From: Candidatus Kryptoniota bacterium
GTDB taxonomy: Bacteria > Bacteroidota > Ignavibacteria > Kryptoniales > JAKASW01
Assembly (NCBI GenBank): GCA_036567965.1
Contig: DATCTN010000031.1
Location: 124,001 to 188,000 of the forward strand
Direction of reading: 5' to 3'
DNA length: 64,000 nt
Positions 9,219 to 34,483 of the stretch are shown here, piece by piece (the stretch's first letter is position 1; each line of letters starts with the position of its first letter). The notes beneath the pieces were generated by a model. It was not told where the DNA came from. It saw only the letters and a program-made list of their open reading frames with translations, and did not search any database. The translations under genes were made by a program, and so were the position numbers.

Positions 9219-9258
9219 CTTTAGGCAGAGAGTGAAACTTACTATTCACATAATCCGA

Positions 9259-9316
9259 CCACAGAGTCGCGGAGGCAGAGAGAGGCGCTCGTTCCCTCTG
9301 TGGCTCTGTGCCTGCA
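9259..9316 (+). repeat. Dispersed inverted repeat, copy 1 (CACAGAG type)
   Basis: The left arm CACAGAGTCGCGGAGGCAG and the right arm CTCTGTGGCTCTGTGCC are imperfect reverse complements. It lies in the gap between GH8 and GH115, but the GH115 frame is open right through it, reading FPLWLCAC in the right arm. The same element type occurs at 12424 and 17808. Further GC-rich palindromic sequence continues to about 9460. Confidence 0.7.
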
Positions 9317-9408
9317 CGCGCTCCGTCGCTGAAGCTTTGGAGCGTAAGCGACCGAAGTGCGTTTCGGCACGTTTACGCGCCGTATCATCAGCACGTGCAT
9401 GCAAGTCC

Positions 9409-12400
9409 ATGTTAGTTCGCTCCAACGCGCAGGCACGCAGGCGTGTCTCTTGTGGTATAATTTCAATATTCTTTGCTTTTCTCCTTTCCGGTCCGCAACA
9501 AGCATTTGCAGTCGGTGGCGACTCTTTTGTTCGATTTGAAAAAGTTGGCGCGGGCTTCCCGCTCTCTTCTTCAGGAAGACCTGCGCCGCTTTTGGTCAGC
9601 TCGAACGACTATCCAGGAGTCCTTCTCATCCTGAAAGATTTTCAAGAAGATGTCGAGGCGGCGACCGGTGCAAAACCTGAAATCTACACCGACACCGTCC
9701 CCTCAAATGGGGAGATAGTAATTGTCGGTACAATTGGACGGAGTGCCTTGGTCGATAAGCTGGTACAGCAAAAAAAGATAGACGTGACCGGAATCTCCGG
9801 TAAATGGGAGGCGTATTTGATCCAGTCCGTCGATAATCCTCTTCCGGGAGTTGATCGGGCACTTGTTGTTGCCGGAAGCGATAAACGCGGAACAATTTTC
9901 GGAATGTTCGAGATTTCAAGACAGATCGGTGTATCTCCGTGGTACTGGTGGGCAGATGTTCCTATAAAGCAACATGAAAATATTTACGTGACTTCCGGTC
10001 GTCACACAGACGGTCCCCCGTCGGTAAAGTATCGCGGAATTTTTTTGAACGATGAATGGCCGGACCTGACAAACTGGATCGTCGCCAAGTTCGGAACGGC
10101 GGCCGTGAGTCAAAACCCGCCCGTCCCGCCCGGCATCGCGAACTACGGTCACTTGTTCTACGAGAAAATCTTCGAACTTGTACTCAGACTAAAGGGCAAC
10201 TACCTCTGGCCTGCAATGTGGAACAACGCGTTCAACGAGGACGACCCTGAAAACCAGAAGCTTGCCGATGAATACGGAATAGTCATGGGTACGTCTCACC
10301 AGGAGCCGATGATGCGCGCGCAAAAGGAATGGGACAGGCGGTATCAGAGCACGCTGGGGAGCTGGAACTTCGCGAAGTTTCCCGAAACTCTGGAGAGCTT
10401 CTGGCAAGAAGGAATAAGACGCAACAAGAATTATGAGAGCATTGTCACGATCGGACTCCGCGGTGCAAATGACACACCCATGGCTCCGGGCGGCCCCGAA
10501 GCAAACATGACACTCCTGGAGAAAATTGTCGGAGTTCAACGGAATATTCTCGCAGAGGAAATGAATCCGGACGCCACAAAAGTTCCGCAGCTCTGGTGTC
10601 TTTACAAAGAGGTGCTGGACTTCTATAGCGCGGGAATGCGCGTTCCGGACGACGTGACTCTACTGTGGCCCGATGATAATTGGGGGAATGTACGGAGACT
10701 CCCGACATCCGGGGAACGAAATCGACCTGGCGGCGCAGGAATTTATTATCACTTCGACTATCACGGCGGACCTCGGAACTACCAGTGGATAAACACGAGT
10801 CCAATTTCAAAAATTTGGGACCAGTTGTCGCTTGCAAAAGAATACGGCGCGGACAGGATCTGGATCGTTAACGTAGGCCATCTAAAAGGTTATGAATTCC
10901 CTATAGAGTTCTTCATGGACCTGGCGTGGAACGCAGATCGATGGACGAACTCGAATCTGAATGAGTACTCGGAACTATGGGCAAAGGAACAGTTTGGCGA
11001 GAAATACTCCGATCAGATCGCGCGGATTCTTTCCGAGTATACAAAGTTTAACGGCAGGCATAAGCCGGAGCTGCTCGCACCGAAGACCTATAGCCTCGTC
11101 GATTATGACGAAGCAGAAAATGTGATCGCGGCGTTCGACTCGTTAAAAGATGACGCGGAGAAAATCTTTAAAGAACTCCCCGAAGATGAACGCGATGCGT
11201 TCTATGAACTTGTCCTTTTCCCGACTCAGGTGAGCGCGATCCTGAACGAGATGTATTATGCAGCCGGGCGGAATGAGCTTTATGCGAAGCAGGGCCGCTC
11301 ACTTACAGACAGTATGGCGGATGAAACGAGATCGCTCTTCAGCAAGGACACTAGTCTCTTCGGTTACTTCAACCGCACTTTTGCCGGCGGAAAGTGGGAC
11401 CATTTCATGGATCAACCTGTAATCGGGTACACCGGCTGGAATCAGCCGTCTGAAAATAATCTGGGGGCCGTCGATCTGAAAGAGTTGAATCTGCCTGCCG
11501 ATGCTGCGATGGGTGTGGCAGTAGAAAATTCGGACGAGGCATGGCCGGGACCCAATGATGCTCCCGAGCTGCCGCGGTTCGATCCCTTTAATGAGCAGCG
11601 ACACCACATCGATCTTTTTAATAAAGGCAAAACGCCATTTGAGTACGCCGTTCATGCGAGCGATCCCTGGATCAAAGTGAGTTCTCCGTCCAGCGAGGTT
11701 CGCGATCAGTCGAGGATCTGGGTCGACATAGACTGGAGCAAAGCTCCGCAAGGTTTCTCATCCGCAACTTTGACAATCTCCGGAACAGACAAAAAAGTGC
11801 CAGTTGGTGTTCGGTTATGGAATCCCGCTGATGTTACGCGCGACAACCTTGACGGGTTTGTCGAAGAAGACGGCTGCGTGTCGATCGAAGCTACGCACTA
11901 TTCAAGCAAGTCAGATGCAGGCACAAGAAAGTGGGTTCAGATCGAAAATTACGGGAACACATTGTCCGCGATGCGGGCATGTTCCGGTCCTGACGACCCA
12001 CCAGCCGACCCCGGAAAGGACTCTCCTCTTCTGGAATACAAAATGTTCTTAACTGATTCGGGTAAGATCGATGTCGAAGGAATATTTGGGCCCTCCTTGA
12101 ATTTCATGCCCGGTCGCGCTGTGAGGTACGCGGTGTCCTTCGATGATGAGGCCCCGCAGGTTGTCGCTCTCGTTCCCGATAAATATAACGCTCAGAACGG
12201 TAACCGGGATTGGGAGAAGTCGGTAGCCGATAACGCACGTCGCTGTCATACTGCACATGAAATTTCACGGGTTGGTTATCACACGCTGAAAATCTGGATG
12301 ATCGATCCGGGAATCGCGTTGGAGAAGATCGTTGTCAATTTCGGAGGTGCCAAACCCAGCTACCTCGGTCCGCCCGAAAGTTTTCACAGGGAAGTCAAGA

Positions 12401-12411
12401 ATGACGATTGA
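9409..12411 (+). CDS. GH115 xylan alpha-1,2-(4-O-methyl)glucuronidase
   Basis: 1000 residues from the ATG at 9409, close to the normal GH115 length. GH115 enzymes release (4-O-methyl)glucuronic acid from internal and terminal xylose units of glucuronoxylan. Recognisable blocks include SPWYWWADVP, GTSHQEPMMRAQKEW (about residue 293), WPDDNWGNVRRLP, and YYHFDYHGGPRNYQW (about 445-460), the family hallmarks. The C-terminal 200 residues are beta-rich, as in the family. The frame is open upstream to 9178, inside GH8. I chose 9409 because it gives a normal signal peptide (RRRVSCGIISIFFAFLLSG...AFA) and avoids the repeat copy at 9259. No clear ribosome site precedes it, so the start is uncertain. 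Its last 11 bases overlap the CE15 start. Confidence 0.92.
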   Translation: MLVRSNAQARRRVSCGIISIFFAFLLSGPQQAFAVGGDSFVRFEKVGAGFPLSSSGRPAPLLVSSNDYPGVLLILKDFQEDVEAATGAKPEIYTDTVPSNGEIVIVGTIGRSALVDKLVQQKKIDVTGISGKWEAYLIQSVDNPLPGVDRALVVAGSDKRGTIFGMFEISRQIGVSPWYWWADVPIKQHENIYVTSGRHTDGPPSVKYRGIFLNDEWPDLTNWIVAKFGTAAVSQNPPVPPGIANYGHLFYEKIFELVLRLKGNYLWPAMWNNAFNEDDPENQKLADEYGIVMGTSHQEPMMRAQKEWDRRYQSTLGSWNFAKFPETLESFWQEGIRRNKNYESIVTIGLRGANDTPMAPGGPEANMTLLEKIVGVQRNILAEEMNPDATKVPQLWCLYKEVLDFYSAGMRVPDDVTLLWPDDNWGNVRRLPTSGERNRPGGAGIYYHFDYHGGPRNYQWINTSPISKIWDQLSLAKEYGADRIWIVNVGHLKGYEFPIEFFMDLAWNADRWTNSNLNEYSELWAKEQFGEKYSDQIARILSEYTKFNGRHKPELLAPKTYSLVDYDEAENVIAAFDSLKDDAEKIFKELPEDERDAFYELVLFPTQVSAILNEMYYAAGRNELYAKQGRSLTDSMADETRSLFSKDTSLFGYFNRTFAGGKWDHFMDQPVIGYTGWNQPSENNLGAVDLKELNLPADAAMGVAVENSDEAWPGPNDAPELPRFDPFNEQRHHIDLFNKGKTPFEYAVHASDPWIKVSSPSSEVRDQSRIWVDIDWSKAPQGFSSATLTISGTDKKVPVGVRLWNPADVTRDNLDGFVEEDGCVSIEATHYSSKSDAGTRKWVQIENYGNTLSAMRACSGPDDPPADPGKDSPLLEYKMFLTDSGKIDVEGIFGPSLNFMPGRAVRYAVSFDDEAPQVVALVPDKYNAQNGNRDWEKSVADNARRCHTAHEISRVGYHTLKIWMIDPGIALEKIVVNFGGAKPSYLGPPESFHREVKNDD

Positions 12412-13972
12412 AACGAAGAAGGATTGCGCTGAGTCGCGCAAAGAGATTCAAGCGATACTTGGCGACTTCTTAGTTCAATCGAGCTCACGGCTCCTCCGCG
12501 TCTCTCTGCGTAATATTTTCCTTGCGGCTCTGTTCATCGGTTCTCATGCAAGCGCTCAGACACCTGAATTCACGAAGATGACCCCTCAAGAACGCGCGGC
12601 GTACTTCGCCAAGATTGGTGCCGAATCCCAGAAAGATTGGCAGAGGATGATCGACATTCTTCACATAGGGTTGCCGGACTCACTTCCCTCTCCGGCAGAA
12701 GATCCCAACCGCCCCGCGGACACGTTCCAGAAAAAAGGATCAACAAGCTGGTACGACAGCACCGGCAATACCTACACGCGCTCCGCCTGGGGAACATGGA
12801 ACAATTATGATGAGATGAAAGCAAACCCATATCGGAATCTGCCGGATCCATTGATAATGGATGACGGCCTGACCATCGCGGATGCCAATGCTTGGTGGAA
12901 AGTCCGCCGTCCCGAAGTGGAGAGACAGTTCGACGAGGAGATCTTCGGTCACGTTCCGGAGAATGTGCCGGCAGTAAATTGGAGAATTGTGGAAACCACG
13001 GACAGCACGATCGGAAGTGTCGCTGTTGTCATAAAACATCTCGTCGGACATGCGGACAATTCGCTCGATCCTGATATTCAGGTGAATATTCAACTTGCTC
13101 TCACACTCCCTGCCAAAGTGGTACACCCGGTTCCTGTGATCATGGAATTCGGATTCGTATTTCCACCGGGTTTTAAATTTCCCGGAATGCCTGAACCAAA
13201 AGGACCGACGTGGCAGGAACAAGTTCTCGACAAGGGTTGGGGATATGCCATTTATGTTCCGACGAGCGTCCAGCCGGACAATGGCGCCGGATTGACGGAA
13301 GGAATCGTCGGACTGGTGAATAAAGGTCAGCCGCGAACTCCAGGTCAATGGGGGGCATTGCGTGCCTGGGCTTGGGGAGCAAGCAGAGTCTTGGATTATT
13401 TTGAGACGGACAAGTCGGTTGACGCAAAGAAAGTCGGCATCGAAGGCGTCTCTCGTTATGGCAAGGCTGTTCTTGTAACCATGGCATATGACCGGAGATT
13501 TGCGATAGTACTTGTCGGATCTTCCGGCAAAGGTGGAGCAGCACTTTACCGGCGCGACTTCGGTGAGGACATGGGGAATATTTGTTCGTCAGGAGAGTAC
13601 CATTGGTTTGCCGGAAATTTCCTGAAATATGTTTTGAATCCGGATAGTCTATCCGTCGATTCGCACGAGCTGATTGACCTTTGCGCACCGCGACCGGTTT
13701 TCATTAGCTGCGGCTCGCCGCAGGAGGAAGGAAGCTGGGTTGATGACAGGGGGCAATTCATGGCAGAGGTTGCTGCGGGACCGGTCTACAGACTTCTGGG
13801 AGAGAAATCTATGGAGGTCACCCAAATGCCGGTGATGGGCACACAGATCGTCGACGGTGCTCTCGGATTTCGCCAGCATGAGGACGGACATACGGTCGGA
13901 CCCAACTGGCCGTACTTCCTCGAGTTTGCGCAACGGTATTTTGATACAATCGCAAATTCATCAGCTAAATGA
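12401..13972 (+). CDS. CE15 glucuronoyl esterase
   Basis: 523 residues. CE15 enzymes cleave the ester between 4-O-methylglucuronic acid of xylan and lignin alcohols. The alpha/beta-hydrolase nucleophile elbow is GVSRYGK with Ser at about residue 351. The block GGAALYRRDFGE and the EYHWFAGNF motif follow, and the catalytic His is in EDGHTVGPNW (about H497), as in bacterial CE15. The ATG overlaps the GH115 stop by 11 bases (ATG, five bases, TGA), indicating translational coupling. The first 45 residues are odd: MTIETKKDCAES is followed by a signal-like segment (RVSLRNIFLAALFIGSHASA) encoded largely by repeat copy 2. The mature enzyme would start near AQTPEF. The function is well supported by the neighbouring glucuronidase and xylanases. 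Confidence 0.87.
   Translation: MTIETKKDCAESRKEIQAILGDFLVQSSSRLLRVSLRNIFLAALFIGSHASAQTPEFTKMTPQERAAYFAKIGAESQKDWQRMIDILHIGLPDSLPSPAEDPNRPADTFQKKGSTSWYDSTGNTYTRSAWGTWNNYDEMKANPYRNLPDPLIMDDGLTIADANAWWKVRRPEVERQFDEEIFGHVPENVPAVNWRIVETTDSTIGSVAVVIKHLVGHADNSLDPDIQVNIQLALTLPAKVVHPVPVIMEFGFVFPPGFKFPGMPEPKGPTWQEQVLDKGWGYAIYVPTSVQPDNGAGLTEGIVGLVNKGQPRTPGQWGALRAWAWGASRVLDYFETDKSVDAKKVGIEGVSRYGKAVLVTMAYDRRFAIVLVGSSGKGGAALYRRDFGEDMGNICSSGEYHWFAGNFLKYVLNPDSLSVDSHELIDLCAPRPVFISCGSPQEEGSWVDDRGQFMAEVAAGPVYRLLGEKSMEVTQMPVMGTQIVDGALGFRQHEDGHTVGPNWPYFLEFAQRYFDTIANSSAK
12424..12513 (+). repeat. Dispersed inverted repeat, copy 2, within the CE15 signal region
   Basis: The left arm TTGCGCTGAGTCGCGCAAAGAG and the right arm CTCCTCCGCGTCTCTCTGCG (ending TAA) are imperfect reverse complements about 45 bases apart. 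The element is wholly inside the first 40 codons of the CE15 gene. Its right arm is read L-L-R-V-S-L-R, the start of the hydrophobic signal segment, in the same codon phase as copies 1 and 3. Confidence 0.65.
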
Positions 13973-17774: not shown

Positions 17775-19577
17775 ATGAATCGAAGTTTGGTGATCACAAC
17801 CGGAAGAGGGACAAAGGCACGGAGATGCGTAGACACCGAGAGAAAGAAATTGCTTTGTGCCTCTATGCCTCTTTACCTTTTTGCCTTTATCATGATTACA
17901 GGAGCCACCTTTAACCTGCATGCACAAATGAAATCGGAATACACAAATCCAATCCTCGCTGGCTTCTATCCTGATCCCAGCATCTGTCGCGTGGACGATG
18001 ACTATTATCTTGTCAACTCCACTTTTGCTTATTATCCGGGCATCCCGGTGTTCCACAGTAAGGATCTTGTCAACTGGAAATTGAGCGGGTATGTTATAGA
18101 CAGGCCGGACGAATTGAATTATGACAGCCTCGGGGTTTCGCGAGGGATATTCGCACCGGCGATAAGGTACCACGATGGACTCTTTTATGTCACCTGCACA
18201 TTTGTGGATGGAGGTGGAAACTTCGTTTGTACAGCAAAGAATCCTGCTGGCCCTTGGTCAAAGCCGGTTTGGTTACCGCAGGTTAGTGGAATAGATCCAT
18301 CTTTGTTTTTCGACGACAACGGAAAGGCGTATTTGGTTTTTAACAGCATCGCGCCCGATAATAAGCCGCTCTACCAGGGGCACAGGACGATCAGGATCCG
18401 GGAATTTGACTACGTGGGGCTGCATGTTCTCGATGAAGAAAAAATTATTGTGAATGGCGGAACAAATATCAAAAACAAACCAGTTTGGATTGAAGGACCT
18501 CATGTTTTCAAAGTGCGCGACAGGTATTACCTCATCGCTGCAGAAGGAGGTACGGCCGAAAATCATTCCGAAGTCGTGTTCAGAAGCGAAAACATTGACG
18601 GCCCTTATGTTCCCTACGAAGATAACCCGATCCTCACGCAGAGGGATTTGAATCCTGACCGGAAGAATCCGGTGACATGCACGGGACATGCGGATCTCGT
18701 CGAGACTCAAGCGAGTACCTGGTGGGCAGTCTTTCTCGGTTGCCGGCCATACGCGGACGATTCCTACAACACCGGCAGAGAAACATTCCTCGCACCTGTG
18801 ACTTGGAAGAACGACTGGCCGATAATTCTTCCACACGGCGATGCAGTGAAGTACTTCTATCAACGACCACTTCCCCCGGTTAGCTCAGACGAGCAATCAT
18901 CTTATAGCGGCAATTTCAAATTCCGGGACGACTTTGATTCAGATAGCTTGAACCTCGTTTGGGAATTCCTGAGGGCTCCTATTGAAAACTGGTACAACCT
19001 GCGCGACAGGAAAGGATATTTGACTCTGCAACTTAGACCGGAGACATGCTCCGGAAAGAATAATCCAAGCTTTATAGCTCATCGCCAGGAACATATGGCT
19101 AGCACAGCGAGCACAGCATTCCAGTTTCTTCCTAAAGCTGAAAACGAGAAAGCCGGTCTGATAATTTTCCAGAACGAGTCGCACTTCTATTTCCTTTGCA
19201 AATCTCTTGAAGAGGGCAAACCTGCGGTCCAGCTTTACAGGTCTATCGACAGCGACAGCTCGAAGACTGAGATGGAACTCATCGCCTCGCGCGAGCTCAG
19301 CCCGGACAGAAGAAATTCCGAATTGAATCTTGAGATCGTGGCGAAGGGCGCTTACTACTCGTTCTCATACGGCTTCAAAAATGACAGATGGATTTCTTTG
19401 GGTGACAGTGTTGACGCTGCGTTCTTGAGTACGAAGACCGCTGGAGGCTTTGTCGGCTGTATGTTCGGTTTATACGCGACATCAATGGGCAAATTGAGCG
19501 GCAACAAGGCGGAGTTTGATTGGTTTAGATACATTGGTAATGATAGCGTTTATTCGAAAGGGACGGATGAAAAGTAA
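17775..19577 (+). CDS. GH43 beta-xylosidase/alpha-L-arabinofuranosidase with GH43 C2 domain
   Basis: 600 residues. The five-blade propeller residues are present: catalytic base Asp in GFYPDPS (D67), pKa modulator in GIDPSLF (D174), and acid Glu in WIEGPHVF (E240). The C-terminal 220 residues (from about 375: FRDDFDSDSLNLVWEFLRAP) form the concanavalin-like beta-sandwich of GH43 xylosidases. The enzyme likely removes xylose or arabinose from xylo-oligosaccharides. The N-terminus is unusual: 30 residues partly encoded by repeat copy 3 lead into a signal segment (MPLYLFAFIMITGATFNLHA). An internal ATG at 17865 would give a standard signal peptide, and neither start has a convincing ribosome site. 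The last 11 bases overlap the SDR start. Confidence 0.85.
   Translation: MNRSLVITTGRGTKARRCVDTERKKLLCASMPLYLFAFIMITGATFNLHAQMKSEYTNPILAGFYPDPSICRVDDDYYLVNSTFAYYPGIPVFHSKDLVNWKLSGYVIDRPDELNYDSLGVSRGIFAPAIRYHDGLFYVTCTFVDGGGNFVCTAKNPAGPWSKPVWLPQVSGIDPSLFFDDNGKAYLVFNSIAPDNKPLYQGHRTIRIREFDYVGLHVLDEEKIIVNGGTNIKNKPVWIEGPHVFKVRDRYYLIAAEGGTAENHSEVVFRSENIDGPYVPYEDNPILTQRDLNPDRKNPVTCTGHADLVETQASTWWAVFLGCRPYADDSYNTGRETFLAPVTWKNDWPIILPHGDAVKYFYQRPLPPVSSDEQSSYSGNFKFRDDFDSDSLNLVWEFLRAPIENWYNLRDRKGYLTLQLRPETCSGKNNPSFIAHRQEHMASTASTAFQFLPKAENEKAGLIIFQNESHFYFLCKSLEEGKPAVQLYRSIDSDSSKTEMELIASRELSPDRRNSELNLEIVAKGAYYSFSYGFKNDRWISLGDSVDAAFLSTKTAGGFVGCMFGLYATSMGKLSGNKAEFDWFRYIGNDSVYSKGTDEK
17808..17886 (+). repeat. 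Dispersed inverted repeat, copy 3, within the GH43 signal region
   Basis: The left arm (17809-17844, ACAAAGGCACGGAGATGCG...) and the right arm (17853-17886, CTTTGTGCCTCTATGCC...) are imperfect reverse complements about 35 bases long. The right arm is read L-L-C-A-S-M-P-L-Y-L-F-A in the GH43 frame and forms the hydrophobic part of the predicted signal peptide. It is in the same codon phase as copies 1 and 2. Confidence 0.75.
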
Positions 19578-20382: not shown

Positions 20383-21990
20383 ATGTTGTTTGAAGTAATG
20401 CGTCGCTGCAAACGAAGGGAACTCTCCGTTGCATTATCCCTTCTTATTGTCGTCTCGTTACCCGCTCAGTCGATCTCGCAATTGGCTCTCGGCAGGAATA
20501 AGTTCGTGGGCAATGCCGTAACATTTGGCAGTAATATTCCATTGAACTTCATGCAGTATTGGGATCAGGTCACTCCAGGCAATGACGGCAAGTGGGGAAG
20601 TGTAGAGAACACTCAGGGCGTGTTTAGTTGGTCGGGCCTCGACGCCATCTATAATTTTGCCCTGATAAACGGGATTCCCTTCAAAGAGCACAACCTCATC
20701 TGTGGATCGCAGCAGCCTTCGTGGATCGGTTCACTCGATTCCGCCGATCAAAGAGCCGCGATACAAGCCTGGATCGACAGCGTCGGGCACAGATATCCGC
20801 AAGCGACGTTTGTCGATGTCGTCAACGAACCCTTCAATACTCCACCCGACGGGAATAACGGCAGGCCCAACTACATCAATGCGATTGGCGGGGCGGGGGC
20901 TACGGGCTGGGATTGGGTCGTCACGGCGTTCACATGGGCAAGGAAGTCCTTTGCGCCGGGCGTGAAGCTCCTGGTGAATGAATACAACATTCTGCAAAGC
21001 AACTCGGTCACGAGTAACTACATCGCCCTCATTGACACGCTGAAGTCAAGAGGACTCATCGACGGGATCGGAATCCAGGGACACTACTTTGAATTCAAGG
21101 ACGCGGCATACCTTGGATCCAGGTATTCTTATCCCGTTAGTACGTTGAAATCCAATCTTGACAGACTGGCTTCCGCCACCGGTTTGCCTATTTACATTAC
21201 AGAGTTCGATGTTGACGAGAAAGACGGCAATACCCAACTTCAAAATTATAAAACGTATTTCCCTCTCTTCTACGAAGATCCCGGCGTAAAGGGGATGACA
21301 TTGTGGGGATATAATTACGGAGACACGTGGAAACCCTACGCATATCTAGATTCTGTAGGAGTGGAACGACCGGCGTTACAGTGGCTGACGACGTACCTGG
21401 CGAAGTATCTGCTGCAGCCGGCGGTGATATCACCGGCAGACAACACGACAGGCGCACTGCGAAATCCCGTAATGTCGTGGCATACATCGATAGCGGCATC
21501 GTTATACCGGGTGCAGGTATCGACGAACGACATATTCACGAGTGTAGTTGCGGACACGACGGTATCCGACACGCTCCTGCAGCTGCCGGCCCTTACCGCT
21601 CATGTGAAATACTACTGGCATGTCAGCGCAATGAATGCGAGCGACACCGGCGATTTCTCCGCGCCGCTGAGTTTCACGACAGGAGACTCGATAGCTACCG
21701 GTATAAAAGAATTTGAAGAGGTTCCGACCGAGTTTAAACTTTCTCAGAACTATCCGAACCCATTCAACCCGACGACTGTGATCAGCTATCAGTTGTCGGC
21801 AGTCAGCAATGTAAGCCTGAAGATCTATGACGTTCTTGGAAGAACAGTCGCGACTCTAGTGAATGGGAGACAGAACGCCGGATATTACAATGTCATATTC
21901 GACGCGAGCAATCTTCCGAGCGGAGTCTATTTTTATCGGTTGAGCACTCAGAACTTTATTGCGGTTAAGAAACTTCTGCTTCTCAAATGA
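20383..21990 (+). CDS. GH10 endo-beta-1,4-xylanase with Fn3-like and T9SS domains
   Basis: 535 residues. AAGGAG precedes the ATG, and the signal segment spans about 13-33. The GH10 barrel (34-345) contains acid/base E149 in VDVVNEP and nucleophile E274 in YITEFDV. An Fn3-like repeat (about 346-434, YYWHVSAMN) is homologous to those of the FG-GAP protein at 4453. A T9SS type A domain ends the protein ([18 protein letters not shown]...YDVLGRTV...GVYFYRL). It is therefore a surface-exported endoxylanase making oligomers for the TonB and exo-enzyme steps. The usual Trp in the 'H-T-L-V-W' motif is Cys here ([13 protein letters not shown]), while the second GH10 keeps Trp. This may alter subsite binding. 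Confidence 0.9.
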
Positions 21991-22013: not shown

Positions 22014-23873
22014 ATGAACAATTTTCATAAACGTCTTTTTGCAATTATTGTAGTGGCCGCGGCATTTTCATCGAGCGCCTACGCGCAGTCGTACACCGTC
22101 AGTGGCAACGTGTCGGCGTCATCGAATGCCGTCCGAAATGCCTCGATCATTTTCACTGATAATGGTAATCCCACTCTAAAATACACAGCTGTAACTGACA
22201 GTATGGGCAATTTCTTGATTGGCTCGATTACGTCAGTTAACAATGGGACCAACGTACCGTCCAGTTTCAAGCTGCAACAGAACTATCCCAACCCATTTTC
22301 GAGTGCGACGTCTATCCCTTACGAGCTCGACAAGCAATCGGATGTGAAGGTTACGATTTACGATATTCTTGGAAGAAAGGTCCAGGAATTTTCGGTCGGC
22401 TTTCAGTCGGCCGGGGCACACGGAATAGTATGGAACGGGAGAGACAATTTCGGAAAGAGAGTCGCAGCAGGTGTCTACATCTATCGCCTTCAGGCGGGAG
22501 GTGAAGCCCAGGCCAGGAAGCTTGTCTTTGGATTGGGAGGTGAAAACGCGCCCATTTCATTTTCGGGTCTGATCCCTTCGAGATCTTCAGAAATACAATA
22601 TGAGAAGCCCGCGACTCCAGCAGGTGAAACTTTTACCGTGCAGATTCAGAATACAGACAGCACATTCCCTGCGATCACCCCGCAGCAATTCAACAACGTA
22701 ACGGTTCAAAGCGATACCACACTCGATTACAGTGTAACCGCGCCGGCCCCTGTGATGGTTTACTTCGACAGCACCCAGCAGATAATTAGGGGATTTGGTG
22801 CGGCTAATATAGTCACCTGGCGGCCAGACATGACGCCGGCAGAAATCCAGACCGCTTTCGGAACAGGCCCCGGCCAACTCGGGCTTTCTATAATGCGCCT
22901 CCGGATCCCGCCCGACTCCACACAGTTTGGCATCAACATCCCCTCGGCAAAGGCGGCGGAAACTCTCGGTGTGACGGTCATTGCATCGCCATGGACGCCG
23001 CCGGCTTGGATGAAGACTAACGACAACATTGTCGGCGGAAGCCTGGATACAAATAACTACGCCGCGTTCGCTGCATTCCTCAATTCGTTCGCGGATACCA
23101 TGGCGAATAACGGCGCACCGATGTACGCTATCTCAGTCCAGAATGAACCCGACGCAAACGTCACTTACGAGTCGTGCTACTGGACGGGAGCGCAATTTCT
23201 AAATTTCATGAGGAACAACGCGCCCGCAGTGGGCACACCGATTATAATGCCGGAATCCGAAAGCTTCACACACTCGTTCTCCGATCCGACGCTCAACGAT
23301 TCCCTCGCGGCGTCCCATCTTACCATTGTCGGCGGACACCTGTACGGTACGAGCCCCTCGCCTTATCCGCTTGCACTAAGTAAGGGGAAAGAATTATGGA
23401 TGACAGAATATCTTGTGACCGATACGACATGGAACGCGGTCATGGGAACCGCCCAGAGCATCAATGATTGCATGGCCGACCAGATGAGCGCGTACATATG
23501 GTGGTACATCATAAGATTTTACGGACCGATTAACGAAAGCGGCGTGGTCATGAAGAGAGGCTATGTAATGTCCCAGTACTCAAAATTCGTCCGTCCCGGA
23601 TCATACCGTGTCGCTGCGACAGCGAATCCTTTGCCAGGGGTCTACCTGACGGCTTACAAGAACGGCTCTAAAGTGGTTGTCGTGGTCATCAGCACTAACT
23701 CGTCTTCATCCCGTTTGACATTTGATGTTGAGGGCGGGTCCGCGTCTTCATTCACTCCATATGTTACGTCGACTACGAAAAATTGCGCGCAAGGGATCAG
23801 CATACCTGTTACCGGGGGAGGTTTCGCCGCTTCGCTTGATGCATCAAGCGTGACCACTTTCGTATCGAATTGA
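22014..23873 (+). CDS. GH30 glucuronoxylanase-like enzyme with an internal T9SS-like domain
   Basis: 619 residues. The signal peptide ends near AYAQ (25). Residues 26-75 look like the start of a carboxypeptidase-regulatory-like domain. Residues 83-176 are a T9SS type A/FlgD-like domain (QQNYPNPFSSATSIPYEL, YDILGRKV, GVYIYRLQAGG), here placed before the enzyme instead of at the C-terminus. The GH30 catalytic domain starts near 250 (IIRGFGAANI) with acid/base E378 in ISVQNEPD and nucleophile E465 in LWMTEYL. A beta-sandwich side domain runs to the end. The sequence resembles subfamily GH30_8, whose members cut xylan at positions set by glucuronic acid branches. Being between two GH10 genes supports this. 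Whether the internal domain still directs secretion is unclear, since no C-terminal signal exists. Confidence 0.85.
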   Translation: MNNFHKRLFAIIVVAAAFSSSAYAQSYTVSGNVSASSNAVRNASIIFTDNGNPTLKYTAVTDSMGNFLIGSITSVNNGTNVPSSFKLQQNYPNPFSSATSIPYELDKQSDVKVTIYDILGRKVQEFSVGFQSAGAHGIVWNGRDNFGKRVAAGVYIYRLQAGGEAQARKLVFGLGGENAPISFSGLIPSRSSEIQYEKPATPAGETFTVQIQNTDSTFPAITPQQFNNVTVQSDTTLDYSVTAPAPVMVYFDSTQQIIRGFGAANIVTWRPDMTPAEIQTAFGTGPGQLGLSIMRLRIPPDSTQFGINIPSAKAAETLGVTVIASPWTPPAWMKTNDNIVGGSLDTNNYAAFAAFLNSFADTMANNGAPMYAISVQNEPDANVTYESCYWTGAQFLNFMRNNAPAVGTPIIMPESESFTHSFSDPTLNDSLAASHLTIVGGHLYGTSPSPYPLALSKGKELWMTEYLVTDTTWNAVMGTAQSINDCMADQMSAYIWWYIIRFYGPINESGVVMKRGYVMSQYSKFVRPGSYRVAATANPLPGVYLTAYKNGSKVVVVVISTNSSSSRLTFDVEGGSASSFTPYVTSTTKNCAQGISIPVTGGGFAASLDASSVTTFVSN

Positions 23874-23893
23874 AGAACCAGGTGAAGCACCGG

Positions 23894-25174
23894 ATGAGAC
23901 TTATTGCTACTCTCGGGCTGATATTCGCGTCAGTCTTCTTATCGGGTGAGAAGTGTCTGTCTCAAATTGCGGAAGGTCAGGGCAAGTTCGTCGGCTGCGC
24001 TGTGAGCTTACCGATTCCGCAGAGCTTTCTGACCTACTGGAATCAAGTCACGCCCGCGGATGAAGGCAAATTTGGACGGGTCGCCAGCTTATCTGCTGAT
24101 ACATCATTGTGGATCTGGAGTTCTCTTGACCAGATTTATGATTTTGCGTTGATTGACAGTATCCCTTTCAAAGAACATAATCTCGTCTGGGGGCAGGAAC
24201 AGCCGTCGTGGATCGGTTCACTCGATTCATCCGATCAGTACCAGGATGTGGTCAACTGGATAAGGCTTTGTGGAGAGAGATATCCCAAAACGGCAATGGT
24301 CGACGTTGTAAATGAGCCTCTCCATGACACGCCGCAGGCCTCCCAAAGCCCTGTACCATATTACAACGCGCTGGGAGGCGCAGGCTCGACGGGCTGGGAT
24401 TGGGTTATTACCGCTTTTACACTGGCGAGGAAATATTTCCCGAATGCGAAGCTGCTTATCAATGAATACTACATTCTTAATTCCGACCCGTCCGATCCCT
24501 ATGCGTCAGTCTATAAGTACGTGAACATAATTAATCTTTTGAAACAGCGGAATCTCATTGACGGGATCGGTTGCGAGATGCATTTTCTGGAACAGCAGGA
24601 TTCATCAGTCTTAAGAGCGAATCTTGATATCCTCGCAGCGACAGGCGTGCCGATCTATATCACGGAATACACGATCAACGAGTCGAGTGATGCAGCACAG
24701 CTTTCCATCATCGAAAATCAGTTCCCCGTATTCTGGAAGCACCCCGCCGTGAAAGGAATTACCTTCTTTGGTTACATACAGGGGCAGGTGTGGAACCGGA
24801 CTCCAAATTGTTTCCTGATTTATTCGAACGGATCCGTGCGGCCGGCATTGACTTGGCTGATGAATTACGTGGCAGAGAACCCTACAGGAATAAAGAAGAC
24901 GATTCTCCCTTCATCGCCGACGCTCGACCAGAACTTCCCCGATCCATTCAATCCGACAACAGTTATTAGGTATCAGCTATCAGCCACCAGCCGCGTGAGT
25001 CTGAAGGTGTACGATGTAATAGGAAGGGAAATTGAAACGCTTGTGGACGAAAGAGAAACACCCGGAACGCACAGTGTTTCATTTGATGCAGCAAAATTCC
25101 CGAGCGGCGTCTACTTCTACCGGCTCGTGACGGGGAATTTCAATGAAGTAAAGAAACTTGTCCTGATTAAATGA
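23894..25174 (+). CDS. Second GH10 endo-beta-1,4-xylanase with T9SS domain
   Basis: 426 residues from the ATG at 23894, which has AGGTG nine bases upstream. An in-frame TTG at 23870 overlapping the GH30 stop is the alternative. The signal segment (MRLIATLGLIFASVFLSG) precedes a GH10 barrel with EHNLVWGQEQPSW, acid/base E141 (VDVVNEP) and nucleophile E258 (YITEYTI). There is no Fn3 domain: the barrel runs almost directly into the T9SS type A domain ([17 protein letters not shown]...YDVIGREI...GVYFYRL). It is clearly a paralogue of the GH10 at 20383, with a shorter architecture and a conserved Trp that the other lacks. It probably acts on the same chain with different subsite preference. Confidence 0.9.
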   Translation: MRLIATLGLIFASVFLSGEKCLSQIAEGQGKFVGCAVSLPIPQSFLTYWNQVTPADEGKFGRVASLSADTSLWIWSSLDQIYDFALIDSIPFKEHNLVWGQEQPSWIGSLDSSDQYQDVVNWIRLCGERYPKTAMVDVVNEPLHDTPQASQSPVPYYNALGGAGSTGWDWVITAFTLARKYFPNAKLLINEYYILNSDPSDPYASVYKYVNIINLLKQRNLIDGIGCEMHFLEQQDSSVLRANLDILAATGVPIYITEYTINESSDAAQLSIIENQFPVFWKHPAVKGITFFGYIQGQVWNRTPNCFLIYSNGSVRPALTWLMNYVAENPTGIKKTILPSSPTLDQNFPDPFNPTTVIRYQLSATSRVSLKVYDVIGREIETLVDERETPGTHSVSFDAAKFPSGVYFYRLVTGNFNEVKKLVLIK

Positions 25175-27141: not shown

Positions 27142-28173
27142 ATGACAGATCAACAATGGGAAACTCTGAAAGAAATCGTCAGCGGCCGGCAGGTCAACCC
27201 GCTTCCGATCGGTTTCGTGATCGATAGCCCATGGCTTCCGAACTGGTACGGAATAAAGATCATTGATTATTTCTCCAACGATGAATTGTGGTTGAATGCC
27301 AACTTGAAGGCACTAAATGATTTTCAGGATGTGATGTTTCTTCCAGGATTCTGGTCGGAGTTTGGAATGTGCACAGAGCCTTCGGCGTTTGGCGCACGCT
27401 GCACATTCCCGCCGGATGAATTTCCGTTTGCCCATAAGATCATCAGGTCGACGGATGATATCGATTACCTGCCGGAGCCCAATCCAAAAACAGACGGCCT
27501 CCTCCCTTATGTTGTTAACCGCTTGAAACTTGCCCGCCCGAAGATCGAAGCGGCCGGACATAAGATCAGATTTGCCGTTGCCAGAGGGCCTCTCAATATC
27601 GCAAGCTATCTCATGGGTTCGACTGAATTCCTTACGACCATGATGATGGAACCTGAGAAAGCCGAGACGCTCGTCAAAAAGATAACCGCGTTCCTTAAGA
27701 ACTGGCTCAACTTCCAGATGGAAACTTTTCCCACCATCGACGGAATTTTCCTGCTTGATGACATAATCGGATTCATGGGCGAGACGGAATTCCTTTCGTT
27801 CGGCATGCCGTTCTTCAAGGAACTGTTCGACGTAAATGTCTCGATCAAGTTTCTCCACAACGATGCACCGTGCAGAGTGTCGGCACCGTTCCTTCCGGAG
27901 ATGGGAGTCAACCTTTTCAACATGGGTTTCGATGTGACATTGAACGAGCTTAAAGAAATGTCGAAAAACCGCGTCACGATGCTCGGGAATCTACCTCCGC
28001 GAGACGTGCTCGCTGCGGGTACTCCCGCCGTTGTCGAAAAAACCGCAGGTGAAATGGCGGCCGCTCTGAAGGAAAAGGCGAGAGTGATCATGTCGTGTGG
28101 GGGCGGTATGCCTCCGGGAGTGAAGACGGAGAATATTCAGGCTTTCATCCGTGGAATCCGAAATGCGCGATGA
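27142..28173 (+). CDS. URO-D-family protein (MtaA/CmuA-like methyltransferase fold)
   Basis: 343 residues, no signal peptide, with a strong GAGGGAA ribosome site. The pattern follows the uroporphyrinogen decarboxylase superfamily: FAVARGPLNIASYLMG, GIFLLDDIIGFM, FNMGFDVTLNELK, MLGNLPPRDVLAAG, and MSCGGGMPPGVKTENIQAF at the end. In corrinoid/CoM methyltransferases of this fold (MtaA, MtbA, CmuA) zinc is held by H-x-C and a later Cys. Here the matching positions are H239, D241 and C319, so one Cys is replaced by Asp. True HemE is unlikely because its arginine signature is absent and the setting is glycan degradation. A role in moving the methyl group of 4-O-methylglucuronate is a hypothesis. 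No corrinoid protein gene is in the window. Confidence 0.7.
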   Translation: MTDQQWETLKEIVSGRQVNPLPIGFVIDSPWLPNWYGIKIIDYFSNDELWLNANLKALNDFQDVMFLPGFWSEFGMCTEPSAFGARCTFPPDEFPFAHKIIRSTDDIDYLPEPNPKTDGLLPYVVNRLKLARPKIEAAGHKIRFAVARGPLNIASYLMGSTEFLTTMMMEPEKAETLVKKITAFLKNWLNFQMETFPTIDGIFLLDDIIGFMGETEFLSFGMPFFKELFDVNVSIKFLHNDAPCRVSAPFLPEMGVNLFNMGFDVTLNELKEMSKNRVTMLGNLPPRDVLAAGTPAVVEKTAGEMAAALKEKARVIMSCGGGMPPGVKTENIQAFIRGIRNAR

Positions 28174-28335: not shown

Positions 28336-29205
28336 ATGAGACGAAGAGATTTCATCAGGTACGCGACGGTGGCTGCTGGGGTGCTCTCACTGCCGTCATA
28401 CGCCCGGAAATTAGCCGCGGCTCCAGTGAAGAAGTTCGCAAGCGATGTCGTGACGCTGGGAAAATCAGGAATTAAAGTGTCACGTCTTGCGGTTGGAACA
28501 GGCACGCACGGATTCAATCACCGATCTGACCAGTCGGAAAACCTCGGCTTGAGCGGACTCGCCGACCTGCTCCACGCCGCGTATGACAGAGGCATAAACT
28601 TCTGGGATTCAGCAGACCAATACGGTACACATCCAGATTTGAAGGAGGCACTGAAGAAAATACCGCGTGAAAAAGTGGTGATTCTTACGAAGACTGAGGC
28701 GACCACGGCGGACGAAATGCGGTCGGACCTCGACAGGTTCAGGAGAGAAATCGGAACGGATTATATAGACATAATTCTTCTTCATATGATGACGGATCGC
28801 GATTGGCCCACATCGAAGCGCGGTGCAATGGAAGTATTGTCGAAGGCGCGCGAGGACGGTGTCATCCGTGCGCATGGAGTATCATGCCACACCCTCGAAG
28901 CTCTGCGGTCGGCGGCGGATTCGGATTGGGTACAGGTGGACTTCGCACGCATCAACCCAGCTGGCACAATGATGGACGCTGACGTGCCGACAGTCGCGGA
29001 TGTCCTGAAGAAAATGCACTCCGGCGGAAAAGGCGTTGTGGGAATGAAAATATTTGGCGCAGGTCGGCTTGTCGCGAGAAAAGACGAGTGCCTCAGGTAT
29101 GTGCTCGGTCTCGATTTTGTCGACGCGTTTACAATCGGCCAGGAAAGCAAGGAACAAATGCTCGATCTGATAGAAAGCATCCCTGCCGCAAGCATCGCAG
29201 GTTAA
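28336..29205 (+). CDS. Tat-exported aldo/keto reductase
   Basis: 289 residues. It begins MRRRDFIRYATVAAGVL, a twin-arginine signal. The aldo/keto reductase barrel follows with all four catalytic residues by pattern: D91 and Y96 (FWDSADQYG), K119 (ILTKTE) and H150 (IDIILLHMM). The C-terminal third is short for a full AKR, ending SIPAASIAG, but closes the barrel normally for this subgroup. Such proteins occur widely in glycan loci of Planctomycetota and Bacteroidota, often next to URO-D-like or dehydrogenase genes. A periplasmic NAD(P)-dependent enzyme needs a retained cofactor, as in Gfo/Idh Tat proteins. The substrate is unknown. The 162-base gap before it has no convincing gene. Confidence 0.82.
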   Translation: MRRRDFIRYATVAAGVLSLPSYARKLAAAPVKKFASDVVTLGKSGIKVSRLAVGTGTHGFNHRSDQSENLGLSGLADLLHAAYDRGINFWDSADQYGTHPDLKEALKKIPREKVVILTKTEATTADEMRSDLDRFRREIGTDYIDIILLHMMTDRDWPTSKRGAMEVLSKAREDGVIRAHGVSCHTLEALRSAADSDWVQVDFARINPAGTMMDADVPTVADVLKKMHSGGKGVVGMKIFGAGRLVARKDECLRYVLGLDFVDAFTIGQESKEQMLDLIESIPAASIAG

Positions 29206-30577: not shown

Positions 30578-31852
30578 ATGGTACGTTCGACGGTTTCTCT
30601 CTCGTGGAAATTCAATCGTGAATTGATCCTTCTATTTATCTTAATAGCTTTTCCATACGAACATTCGGCGGCAGGACAACTCCCGGGCGACGACAGTTCT
30701 CTAACTATACAGAAGATAAAAGCTGTCGCAAGTATGGTCATCAAAAGCAGCACGTTTGAGTTTGTCGATGACAGCACAGGCAAGAAGTACGGATCGACTT
30801 CAGACGCGCCCGACATCGCGCGGATCCGTCCGGAAAGCCCATACAACGATTGGAGATACTGGAACGGAGTCCTGAATATCGCGATGATTAACTTGGGCAA
30901 GGTCATGAACGATCCTTCCTGCGTGACTTTTTCGGAAAAATCAATTTCATTCGATTTCGACAATTACGGATATTTCCGGGATCGGTACGTTAATCAGGAC
31001 AAATGGTCGTACCCATTCGGCCAGAAAATCGTCATCGAAGTTCTCGACGACTACGGCGCAATGGGGGCAAGCCTGATAGAGGTGTATGAACAGGATAGGC
31101 AGAAGCGCTATCGGGAATACATCGACCAGGCAATCGATTTTCTTGAGACCAAACAGGATCGTCTCGCCTATGGCACGCTGGTCCGTCCGCTTCCGAGAAA
31201 GTGGACCCTCTGGGCAGATGACCTCTATATGAGTGTATCGTTCCTGAGTCGCATGGGCGAGCTGACTCATGATGACCGCTATCTCGATGACGCGGCGAAT
31301 CAGGTTATAAACTTTCACAAGTGTCTCTTCGATTCCCTGACGGGTTTAAATTATCACTGCTGGTTCTCCGACTCCATGAAAAACGGTGTGGCCTGCTGGG
31401 GACGTGCGAACGGTTGGATCATGCTCGGCCAGATCGACCTGCTGGATCGGCTGCCGGCAAATTATTCAAAGCGCGACACACTCCTCTCGATCTTTAGAGA
31501 AGAGATCGCAGGGATTGCAAGGTACCAGAGCGATAATGGTTTATGGCACCAGCTCCTCGACAAACCCGATTCATATCTCGAGACATCTTGCTCGGCCATG
31601 TTTACTTACGTAATCGCGCGCGGCGTGAGAAAAGGGTATCTTGAGCGCCAGTATGAATCCGTTGCACGCCGGGGGTGGAACGGCGTCATGTCAAGGATCA
31701 GGCCTGACGGCGAGATTGAAGGGGTATGCGAGGGAACCGGCGTCGGGGATGATCTCGCATTCTACTACGCAAGGCCGACACCTTTAAATGATCCGCACGG
31801 TATCGGTCCGGTCCTCCTGGCAGGAGCCGAAATCCTGCGACTCGCAAAATAA
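30578..31852 (+). CDS. GH105 unsaturated glucuronyl/rhamnogalacturonyl hydrolase
   Basis: 424 residues. A GGAAAG site precedes the ATG, and the signal segment is about 15-34. The (alpha/alpha)6 barrel motifs of GH105/GH88 are visible: NDWRYWNGVLNIAM, DDYGAMGASLIEVYE, the catalytic block WADDLYMSVSFL (Asp at about 214-215), WGRANGWIM, and GLWHQLLDKPDSYLETSCSAMF. The family adds water to 4,5-unsaturated uronic acid at the non-reducing end of lyase products. This implies that a polysaccharide lyase supplies its substrate, and the beta-helix protein at 25236 or a gene outside the window is a candidate. It adjoins the hexuronate transporter, which would carry the released uronate. Confidence 0.85.
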   Translation: MVRSTVSLSWKFNRELILLFILIAFPYEHSAAGQLPGDDSSLTIQKIKAVASMVIKSSTFEFVDDSTGKKYGSTSDAPDIARIRPESPYNDWRYWNGVLNIAMINLGKVMNDPSCVTFSEKSISFDFDNYGYFRDRYVNQDKWSYPFGQKIVIEVLDDYGAMGASLIEVYEQDRQKRYREYIDQAIDFLETKQDRLAYGTLVRPLPRKWTLWADDLYMSVSFLSRMGELTHDDRYLDDAANQVINFHKCLFDSLTGLNYHCWFSDSMKNGVACWGRANGWIMLGQIDLLDRLPANYSKRDTLLSIFREEIAGIARYQSDNGLWHQLLDKPDSYLETSCSAMFTYVIARGVRKGYLERQYESVARRGWNGVMSRIRPDGEIEGVCEGTGVGDDLAFYYARPTPLNDPHGIGPVLLAGAEILRLAK

Positions 31853-31916: not shown

Positions 31917-33200
31917 ATGGTAACCGAACAAGAGAGATCCGGAAACTCTGCTTCTCCTATGAGCTCATATCGATGGACGGTCTGCGCGCTCCTCTTCTTT
32001 GCGACGACGATAAATTATATTGACAGACAGGTCCTCGGGATCCTTGCGCCCGTTCTTCAGAAGGACATAGGCTGGAACGAGATCGAATACGGCTACATCG
32101 TCGCCGCGTTCACAGGCGCGTATGCTGTCGGGCTTTTGTTTGTGGGAAGATTCATCGATCGAGTGGGAACAAAGATCGGCTATTCCATTTCGATATTTAT
32201 ATGGAGTATCGCGGCCATGGCACACGCGCTCGCGAGAAACGCTTTAGGATTTGGAGCGGCGAGGGCGGCACTCGGGCTCGGCGAATCGGGAAATTTTCCT
32301 GCGGCAATAAAGGCAACGGCTGAATGGTTCCCTAAAAAGGAAAGAGCATTCGCGACCGGGTTATTCAACTCCGGCGCCAATATAGGTGCGGTCGTCGCGC
32401 CGCTCGTCGTACCGTGGATCACGCTCACCTGGGGCTGGCGGGAAGCTTTTATTTTCACCGGACTTCTCGGATTTATCTGGTTCGCATTGTGGGTCTGGCT
32501 TTATGAAACCCCGGAAAGACATAAAAGAGTCTCTCAAGCGGAGCTCGCGTACATCCGGAGCGATCCCGAAGAACTCGTCTCGGTGAAAGTCCCCTGGCTG
32601 AAGCTTCTAAAGTACAAGGAGACATGGGCGTTCGTCGCCGGAAAATTCTTAACCGATCCGATATGGTGGTTCTATCTTTACTGGCTTCCGAAGTTTCTGA
32701 ATGAAAGATATAATCTGGATCTCGCTCAGCTCGGATTACCCCTCATCGTCATTTATACAATGACGAGCATCGGGAGCATCGGAGGGGGCTGGTTATCGGG
32801 AGCGTTTCTAAAGAGAGGGTGGACACTCAACCGAAGCAGGAAATCGGTAATGCTGGTCAGCGCGATATTGATAGTTCCCATCGTGTTCGCTTCGACTGTC
32901 CCCGAGTGGTGGGCCGTTCTCCTGATTGGGCTCGCCGCCGCGTCTCACCAGAGTTGGTCTGCAAACCTATTCACGACTGTCTCCGACATGTTTCCGAAAG
33001 AAGCCGTCGGTTCTGTTGTCGGGTTGGGAGGAACGGCAGGCGCGGTCGGAGGAATGCTCGTGGCGACTGCCGCCGGACTTATCCTGCAATTGACGGGGAA
33101 TTATCTGTCGCTCTTCATTCTCGCGGGAACGGTATACCTGCTCGCGTTATTGATCTTCAACTGGCTCGTCCCCAGACTCAAGCAAATTCAACTTGCCTGA
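31917..33200 (+). CDS. MFS hexuronate transporter (ExuT-like, anion:cation symporter family)
   Basis: 427 residues with about 12 hydrophobic segments. The first helix reads CALLFFATTINYIDRQVLGILAP, typical of the ACS family that includes ExuT (glucuronate/galacturonate) and GarP. The MFS loop motif is GRFIDRVGTKIGY, and ALGLGESGNFPAAIKATAEWFP is a strong ACS family block. The function inferred is proton-driven uptake of glucuronate or galacturonate released by GH115 and GH105. It ends the plus-strand xylan series and converges with uxuA (87 bases apart). A second Met (31959) is a possible start that would remove a hydrophilic tail. Whether it accepts methylated glucuronate is unknown. Confidence 0.85.
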   Translation: MVTEQERSGNSASPMSSYRWTVCALLFFATTINYIDRQVLGILAPVLQKDIGWNEIEYGYIVAAFTGAYAVGLLFVGRFIDRVGTKIGYSISIFIWSIAAMAHALARNALGFGAARAALGLGESGNFPAAIKATAEWFPKKERAFATGLFNSGANIGAVVAPLVVPWITLTWGWREAFIFTGLLGFIWFALWVWLYETPERHKRVSQAELAYIRSDPEELVSVKVPWLKLLKYKETWAFVAGKFLTDPIWWFYLYWLPKFLNERYNLDLAQLGLPLIVIYTMTSIGSIGGGWLSGAFLKRGWTLNRSRKSVMLVSAILIVPIVFASTVPEWWAVLLIGLAAASHQSWSANLFTTVSDMFPKEAVGSVVGLGGTAGAVGGMLVATAAGLILQLTGNYLSLFILAGTVYLLALLIFNWLVPRLKQIQLA

Positions 33201-33286: not shown

Positions 33287-34483
33287 CTAGTAACCGAGAG
33301 AACGTCTGATACCCATTTCCAGGCCGCGTAATTCGGCAAGCCCTCTCATTCTTCCGAAGAGAGAGTAGCCCGGATAAATTCCTTTCCTGTTTTGATCGGG
33401 TATCATGAGATGCCCGTGATCGGGGCGCATCGGCATCTTCGCGCCTCGCCTTCCTTCTTTCAACCGGTTGTTCTGTTCCACTATCAACGGCCTCATAACG
33501 CCGTAAATATCTATATCACCCTCGAGATGATTTTCTTCAAGGAAGTCGCCGTCAGCGTTCCTTGTCACGTTTCGCAAATGAATGAAGTTTACCCTCCGCG
33601 CAAATGTCTGTGCCATATCGACGAGATCGTTCTTGAATGAGGCACCAAACGACCCGGTGCAAAGAGTTATTCCATTCGAAGGCGAATCGTTAACTCGTAA
33701 GATCTGTTCAATGTCTTTCTTGTCGCATACGACCCGCGGCAATCCCAGAAGAGGCCAGGGCGGATCGTCAGGATGGATTGCCATCATGACCCCCGATTCG
33801 TCGGCGACAGGAATGATCTCTTTCACGAACCCATGAAGGTTTTGTCGAAGTTCGCCGTCACCTATCTCCCTGTACTCTGCGAGAGCCGACCTGAAACCGT
33901 CGAGAGTATATGCTTCAAGCGAGCCGGGAAGACCGAGAAGAATGGTGTCCACCAATTTCTTTTTCTTATCGTCGTCCAATCTTCCAAAATATTTTTTCGC
34001 GAGGCGGATTTGGTCGGGAGTGTAATCTCTCTCAGCGTCGTTACGCTTCAGAATGAAAATGTCGAACGCGGCAAGCGCTTTCGGTTCGAACCGCGTGGTG
34101 ATGGAGCCATCGCGATAAATCACCTGTAAATCCGTGCGGAGCCAATCGAGGACAGGCATGAAGTTATAGCAGACGGTATCGACTCCGCATTCCCCAAGGT
34201 TTCTGATCGATTGCTTGTAATTTTCAATTAGCTTTCTGTAATTGTCTTTTTGCTTTTTGATATTTTCGTGGACCGGAATGCTCTCCGCTACTGACCACCT
34301 TAGCCCTTCCGATTCTACAACGGCTTTTCTTTTGTTTATCTCGTCGGGTGTCCACACGTCACCGACGGGAATGTGGTGCAGGGCGGTGACGATTCCTGTC
34401 GCACCGGTCTGCCTTATTTCCTTGAGACTGAATGGATCGTTGGGTCCGAACCATCTCCAGGTTTGTTCAAATCCTGCAGGCAT
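33287..34483 (-). CDS. uxuA: Mannonate dehydratase UxuA
   Basis: 398 residues, close to the 394 of E. coli UxuA. The N-terminus (EQTWRWFGPNDPFSLKEIRQTGATGIVTALHHIPVGDVW) aligns nearly block for block with the family; the clearest pieces are WRWFGPNDP and TALHHIP. MMAIHPDDPPWPLLGLPRVV carries the metal-site His, with LCTGSFGA, FIHLRNV and MRPDHGHLM further on. The enzyme removes water from D-mannonate to give 2-keto-3-deoxygluconate in the glucuronate pathway. No other pathway enzyme (UxaC, KdgK, KdgA) is in the window. It lies 35 bases behind batE on the same strand, so it may be transcribed with the Bat operon, and it converges with the hexuronate carrier. Confidence 0.93.
   Translation of the reverse strand: MPAGFEQTWRWFGPNDPFSLKEIRQTGATGIVTALHHIPVGDVWTPDEINKRKAVVESEGLRWSVAESIPVHENIKKQKDNYRKLIENYKQSIRNLGECGVDTVCYNFMPVLDWLRTDLQVIYRDGSITTRFEPKALAAFDIFILKRNDAERDYTPDQIRLAKKYFGRLDDDKKKKLVDTILLGLPGSLEAYTLDGFRSALAEYREIGDGELRQNLHGFVKEIIPVADESGVMMAIHPDDPPWPLLGLPRVVCDKKDIEQILRVNDSPSNGITLCTGSFGASFKNDLVDMAQTFARRVNFIHLRNVTRNADGDFLEENHLEGDIDIYGVMRPLIVEQNNRLKEGRRGAKMPMRPDHGHLMIPDQNRKGIYPGYSLFGRMRGLAELRGLEMGIRRSLGY

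Follow-up and report, generated by a model that had tools for sequence, protein, structure and literature searches.

A URO-D-superfamily protein in a glucuronoxylan locus of a Candidatus Kryptoniota bacterium is a candidate corrinoid-dependent O-demethylase of 4-O-methylglucuronate

We analysed a 64,000-nucleotide stretch of DNA from a Candidatus Kryptoniota bacterium (the window) and identified in it a gene, P0001, whose product is probably the methyltransferase I (MTI) of an oxygen-independent corrinoid O-demethylase. The predicted substrate is 4-O-methylglucuronate or one of its metabolites, and the methyl group would pass to homocysteine. Judged from sequence, we put the probability of this reading at roughly two in three; catalysis, its direction and the exact substrate are predicted, and sequence family, fold, operon partners, co-occurrence and motif were observed. 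The initial annotation had guessed at such an enzyme from gene context, and both the corrinoid partners of P0001 and its co-occurrence with GH115 argue for that guess.

P0001 lies in a glucuronoxylan locus in which the glycosidase and MFS genes share its strand and uxuA is on the opposite strand. The cluster of GH115, CE15, GH30, MFS and UxuA genes reported earlier was recovered in full, the CE15-like member through the Pfam GCE family:

7956..9218, + strand: GH8 family protein, reducing-end xylanase-like (PF01270)
9178..12411, + strand: GH115 alpha-glucuronidase, releasing (4-O-methyl)glucuronic acid (PF15979, 8.6e-150)
12332..13972, + strand: CE15-like glucuronoyl esterase (PF22244 GCE_fung, 1.8e-30)
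17775..19577, + strand: GH43 protein with GH43_C2 domain (domain match)
20383..21990, + strand: GH10 xylanase with T9SS tail (domain match)
22014..23873, + strand: GH30 glucuronoxylanase, XynC-like (PF02055; 366 bits against NCBIfam XynC, cut-off 650)
23870..25174, + strand: second GH10 xylanase with T9SS tail (domain match)
27142..28173, + strand: P0001, 343 aa, ATG start; URO-D-superfamily protein, proposed methyltransferase I (candidate O-demethylase)
30578..31852, + strand: GH88-family protein, unsaturated glucuronyl hydrolase-like (PF07470)
31917..33200, + strand: sugar-acid MFS transporter, galactonate-like (PF07690; TIGR00893 score under the cut-off)
33287..34483, - strand: UxuA mannonate dehydratase (PF03786, 4e-125)

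Relatives of the MFS transporter adjoin P0001 orthologs in several loci. Directly downstream of P0001, positions 28336-29205 encode an aldo/keto-reductase with an N-terminal twin-arginine-like signal; a 72% identical ortholog lies beside P0001 in G039, a genome of the same genus. The GH30 protein has an unusual domain order, with a T9SS sorting-tail-like domain (residues 91-171) placed after the signal peptide and before the catalytic domain rather than at the C-terminus.

According to uronate chemistry, a 4-O-methyl ether would end as 2-O-methyl-glyceraldehyde phosphate after the UxuA/KDG route, and demethylation is therefore needed at some step. The claim that no known demethylase is encoded here held for the window, which has no B12-binding gene; all 14 B12-binding matches of the genome lie outside it. 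4-O-Methylglucuronate is described as a major side group of xylan (PMC3879575), and in the open-licence literature we found no published 4-O-methylglucuronate demethylase, anaerobes included.

P0001 belongs to the UroD superfamily by both sequence score and fold. It matched the Pfam URO-D family PF01208 with an E-value of 8e-33 and 114.3 bits (gathering score 23.9), and its AlphaFold2 model (pLDDT 95.6) has the URO-D TIM-barrel fold. The top solved-structure match to the model was MtaA 4ay7 (Z 32.4, 2.7 Å, 327 residues), with which HemE entries tied within 1 Z (~31, ~31.4); the structural matches listed for the model (VIA-align, Foldseek) included no MTI structure of the CdmB/MtoB type. The sequence profile A2, comprising 50 of 84 proteins, matched the PDB entries of CdmB (E 1.2e-5) and MtaA (E 1.3e-6).

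Several more specific assignments were rejected. P0001 scored 56.2 bits against the HemE model TIGR01464 of NCBIfam (equivalog cut-off 302.95), and a separate HemE is encoded on contig C27 (415 bits) of the genome, which has eight URO-D genes in total. Membership of the MtaA/CmuA family was likewise dismissed (TIGR01463, 57.4 bits; cut-off 235.4), as was a role as an S-methyltransferase (SCMT/Mlp), since P0001 has no His-Cys-Cys zinc sphere and carries HND and G321 at those columns. In a tree of 38 rows, whose deeper joins are long branches and were left unused, P0001 and a sister group (P0001') formed a clade with support of 99/95, and the C21b URO-D of the same genome grouped with a second URO-D of G039 (99/88).

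The residues at the predicted active site are encoded as follows:

27757..27762, + strand: codons of D206-D207, an invariant acidic pair; EP in MtaA-like second URO-Ds
27856..27864, + strand: codons of H239-N240-D241, which stands in for HxC; invariant in 83/83
28096..28104, + strand: codons for C319-G320-G321, of which G321 and not C319 occupies the canonical second Cys column

The 83 proteins with H239-N240-D241 are 80 relatives of P0001 and 3/3 members of the sister group; D206, D207, E73, E79 and R148 are likewise invariant across the aligned relatives. HxC...GC is carried by MtaA-like paralogs, including second URO-Ds in P0001 loci and two C21 proteins of the same genome. The initial annotation had set H239, D241 and C319 in the zinc-ligand places. 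The residue positions are correct, but C319 is not the canonical ligand. In a MAFFT alignment with the HxC...GC paralogs, and in an hhalign profile-profile alignment that is ungapped at this point, the canonical second Cys is aligned with G321, two residues downstream of C319. Moreover, the residue is Cys in 78/80 relatives, Ser in 2/80 and Val in 3/3 sister-group proteins, indicating that C319 is not essential. On this register and these replacements, C319 was rejected as a zinc ligand. MAFFT puts D241 in the first canonical Cys column, whereas hhalign introduces a gap and puts C244 there; the assignment of D241 to this column is thus less sure.

Kountz and Balskus describe UroD-superfamily S-methyltransferases as using His-Cys-Cys and O-methyltransferases as swapping Cys for carboxylates or non-ligands (PMC10418091). 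By the rule given there, the His-carboxylate arrangement of P0001, kept in every relative aligned, points to an O-methyl substrate. As that source reports His-carboxylate for O-methyl transfer, the HND motif does not by itself mark a new subgroup, as had been suggested.

A search for corrinoid partners, proposed at the outset, located them beside P0001 in many relatives. In loci from Ignavibacteria, Spirochaetes, Fibrobacterota and Verrucomicrobiota, the genes run in the order corrinoid protein (CoP; PF02310+PF02607), homocysteine S-methyltransferase (Hcy; PF02574), MetH-type activation domain (Act; PF02965) and P0001; the arrangement is divergent in Bacteroidales. This set looks like a split methionine synthase in which the URO-D protein takes the place of the methyl-folate module. 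We counted neighbours in the best 80 of 566 confirmed relatives, a set drawn from named genomes that leans to close relatives and in which short contigs lower the counts. At least one of the three partners lay within 6 kb of P0001 in 33/80 loci and all three in 23/80; among the 43 of these loci with at least 5 kb upstream and at least 4 kb downstream, the corresponding numbers were 23 and 16. Several loci carry, adjacent or close to P0001, a second URO-D with HxC, and with GC where the protein is complete: L045, L048, L049, L052, L061, L076 and L083, and also L037 and L039.

In the genome of the window, the corrinoid, Hcy and activation genes are on a separate contig, C21, along with three further URO-Ds. 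The closest copy of the C21 set is in G039, some 6 kb past the P0001 ortholog, the two sets being 83% identical in the corrinoid protein, 69% in the Hcy methyltransferase (Hcy-MT), 63% in the second URO-D and 58% in the activation protein. We infer that the C21 set serves P0001. A corrinoid protein is thus encoded with the MTI in relatives and on a different contig here. The methyl acceptor enzyme and activator are encoded too, as Hcy-MT and a MetH-type activation protein in the P0001 group and as MTII, MTHFR and RACE in the sister group; a RACE activase gave no match in the window's genome at E ≤ 0.001. The three URO-Ds beside the C21 set (positions 7519-12354 of L019, G000:C21:42000-61000) comprise two MtaA-like HxC...GC proteins and one of 447 aa. 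The set adjoins mannose-6-phosphate-isomerase-like and glycosidase-like genes, and the C21 cluster's own donor substrate may differ from that of P0001. In G039, a formyl-THF deformylase-like gene (ACT and formyl transferase; 8960-9823 of L034) lies directly upstream of the P0001 ortholog, which hints at one-carbon overflow.

Across the class, the P0001-type corrinoid protein (E ≤ 1e-100) was found in 26/29 genomes of the close group versus 7/265 others. A corrinoid protein lay within 10 kb of P0001 in 19/29 genomes and of P0001' in 7/8. Three P0001 carriers of family f4 (G014, G557 and G563) had a weaker corrinoid protein match only. The seven genomes with a strong match that have no P0001 (G035, G097, G243, G263, G341, G381 and G547) may encode related demethylases that act on other donors.

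The sister group provides a second operon type. P0001' proteins are 32-34% identical to P0001; of the 37 carrier genomes in the class, 8 encode this type, and in 7/8 of them a corrinoid protein follows P0001'. In L043, the run consists of URO-D', corrinoid protein, Hcy-MT, an MTHFR with a MetV domain and a pterin-binding methyltransferase, after which the opposite strand encodes an activation-like protein (a match to the Act profile, in no Pfam family) and then a RACE activase. This run adjoins GH10, XylB-like and UxuA genes. A similar run occurs in L042 and none within the 20 kb of L041. URO-D' is the sole URO-D found in the sister-group operon. By their sequences, the parts in L043 would make up a classical O-demethylase, with URO-D' as the only candidate for methyltransferase I.

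P0001 co-occurs tightly with GH115. Among the 294 genomes of the class, 37 encode P0001 or P0001' (E ≤ 1e-40) and 33 encode GH115, all 33 being inside the 37. Expressed otherwise, P0001/P0001' is present in 33/33 GH115 genomes and in 4/261 others (Fisher 1e-39, ungrouped by kinship). By genus, the GH115 link was seen in 20/21 carrier genera versus 0/131 other genera. Within the window's genus, every GH115 carrier has P0001, and the five listed members without P0001 are also without GH115. The carriers without GH115 are G373, G450, G501 and G513; G450 has GH67. GH115 and P0001 are no more than 25 kb apart in 21/33 genomes.

GH10 served as a control. Among the 36 genomes with GH10, of 235, P0001 was present in 22/22 with GH115 versus 2/14 without it (Fisher 7e-8). 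GH10 without GH115 thus predicts P0001 poorly, which indicates that P0001 follows the glucuronidase and not xylanase in general; plain confounding by xylan degradation was rejected as the source of the GH115 link. The co-occurrence that the initial annotation had asked for was therefore borne out within the class.

Further afield, the association is looser. In a draw from the phylum, 44 GH115 genomes from other classes had no P0001 at E ≤ 1e-40, indicating that P0001 is not required wherever 4-O-methylglucuronate is released. It had been proposed that a subgroup common in loci with no methylated sugars would speak against the demethylase, and this was found in part: among relatives of less than 65% identity (Bacteroidales and Spirochaetes), xylan genes flank 6/34 loci of the best 80 of 566, and several lie among housekeeping genes. 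However, GH115 or GH67 occurs somewhere in the genome in 25/39 other carriers and neither in 14/39, these being MAGs of unstated completeness. The 39 are the 34 loci below 65% identity and five at 66-71% (L059, L072, L076, L080 and L088) without flanking xylan markers, all from the best 80 of 566.

In the proposed mechanism, GH115 and GH67 would free 4-O-methylglucuronate from xylan and the MFS transporter would import it. P0001 would bind 4-O-methylglucuronate, or an early metabolite (4-O-methyl fructuronate, for example, or the corresponding mannonate), and position it above the partner protein's Co(I) corrinoid. An acid or metal site formed by H239, D241, D206 and D207 would activate the ether oxygen, and Co(I) would attack the 4-O-methyl carbon, moving the methyl group to cobalt and allowing the free uronate to enter the UxuA pathway. 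A stand-alone enzyme corresponding to MetH module 1 would then transfer the methyl group from the methyl-corrinoid to homocysteine, by which the methyl group of xylan would become that of methionine. Co(II) would be rescued by the stand-alone MetH-type activation protein. Contig C21 would supply these partners in the window's genome. Sister-group members could also pass the methyl group to folate through the pterin-binding MTII and MTHFR, with RACE as the activase.

Other readings of P0001 are less probable. The protein could be part of a corrinoid O-demethylase for methoxylated aromatics, such as ferulate of arabinoxylan or lignin fragments freed by CE15 from glucuronoxylan. UroD-superfamily MTIs do serve the known aromatic O-demethylases, and methoxy-aromatics are the substrates reported for the known corrinoid O-demethylases of this superfamily (PMC13222342, PMC8630106). 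PF00756-type esterases also occur in the window (29260-30444) and in 7/80 loci of the best 80 of 566 relatives. The tight link, however, is to GH115, a source of methylated sugar rather than of an aromatic, while GH10 without GH115 does not predict P0001, and no such esterase is labelled by profile in L041, L042 or L043 of the sister group. We consider an aromatic substrate unlikely.

We also doubt that P0001 is the URO-D subunit of a folate-independent methionine synthase drawing its methyl group from a general cellular donor, with the xylan link arising by hitch-hiking in polysaccharide-degrading genomes. The co-occurrence of P0001 with GH115, perfect within the class, the conditional association within GH10 genomes, the proximity of P0001 to GH115 in 21/33 genomes and an HND motif that speaks against a thiol or S-methyl substrate all count against it, even though the partners are MetH modules and the sets of Bacteroidales and Spirochaetes often lie among housekeeping genes. 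Some other role in the uronate pathway on the URO-D/TIM-barrel fold, such as that of a decarboxylase, would involve no methyl transfer. HemE has the same fold, but a separate HemE is present, P0001 falls far below the HemE cut-off (56 versus 303), and recurrent operons with a corrinoid protein, a homocysteine methyltransferase and an activation domain make such a role very improbable.

A 4-O-methylglucuronate demethylase built on P0001 would resemble the three-component systems MtvABC, Odm/Vdm and MtoABCD, whose MTI is described as a UroD-superfamily member (PMC13222342), in having a separate corrinoid protein, a dedicated methyl acceptor enzyme and an activator; the sister group also shares their pterin-binding MTII and RACE-type activase. 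Unlike in those systems, the proposed substrate is a sugar ether, and in the P0001 group the methyl group would go to homocysteine by way of MetH modules, with a MetH-like activator and no RACE match in the window's genome. P0001 shares superfamily and fold with MtaA/MtbA (SCMT) and the type 1 mlp clusters, and HxC...GC is present in the second URO-D of P0001 loci; P0001 itself differs in having no His-Cys-Cys and in scoring 57 bits where TIGR01463 requires 235. Type 1 mlp clusters, which combine Mlp2 and Mlp3 with His-Cys-Cys, a corrinoid protein and RACE, are tied by their describers to sulfur or selenium metabolism (PMC10418091). P0001 was not assigned to such a cluster, because it lacks this motif and its genome gave no RACE match. 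The corrinoid, homocysteine and activation modules of MetH are all present in P0001 loci, but as separate proteins, and the operon has a URO-D protein instead of a methyl-folate module. The only sugar-ether demethylase that we met in the open-licence literature is the cytochrome P450 of porphyran degraders, reported to act on 6-O-methylgalactose (PMC10033563). Like the reaction proposed for P0001, it removes an O-methyl group from a polysaccharide-derived sugar; unlike it, the P450 is described as oxidative, needs O2, yields formaldehyde and belongs to an unrelated protein family.

Relatives of P0001 occur in Ignavibacteriota, Bacteroidota, Spirochaetota, Fibrobacterota, Calditrichota, Verrucomicrobiota, Sumerlaeota and KSB1. 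The chances are evenly balanced that they form a widespread, unnamed family of oxygen-independent sugar O-demethylases in anaerobes, in which the methyl group of 4-O-methylglucuronate reaches methionine via a split MetH, or folate in the sister group, and hemicellulose methyl groups feed one-carbon metabolism. If the assignment of P0001 is correct, this enzyme set would fill a gap in the anaerobic demethylation of 4-O-methylglucuronate and would extend corrinoid O-demethylation beyond aromatic ethers to aliphatic sugar ethers. In anoxic sediments and guts, methyl groups would then derive from hemicellulose as well.
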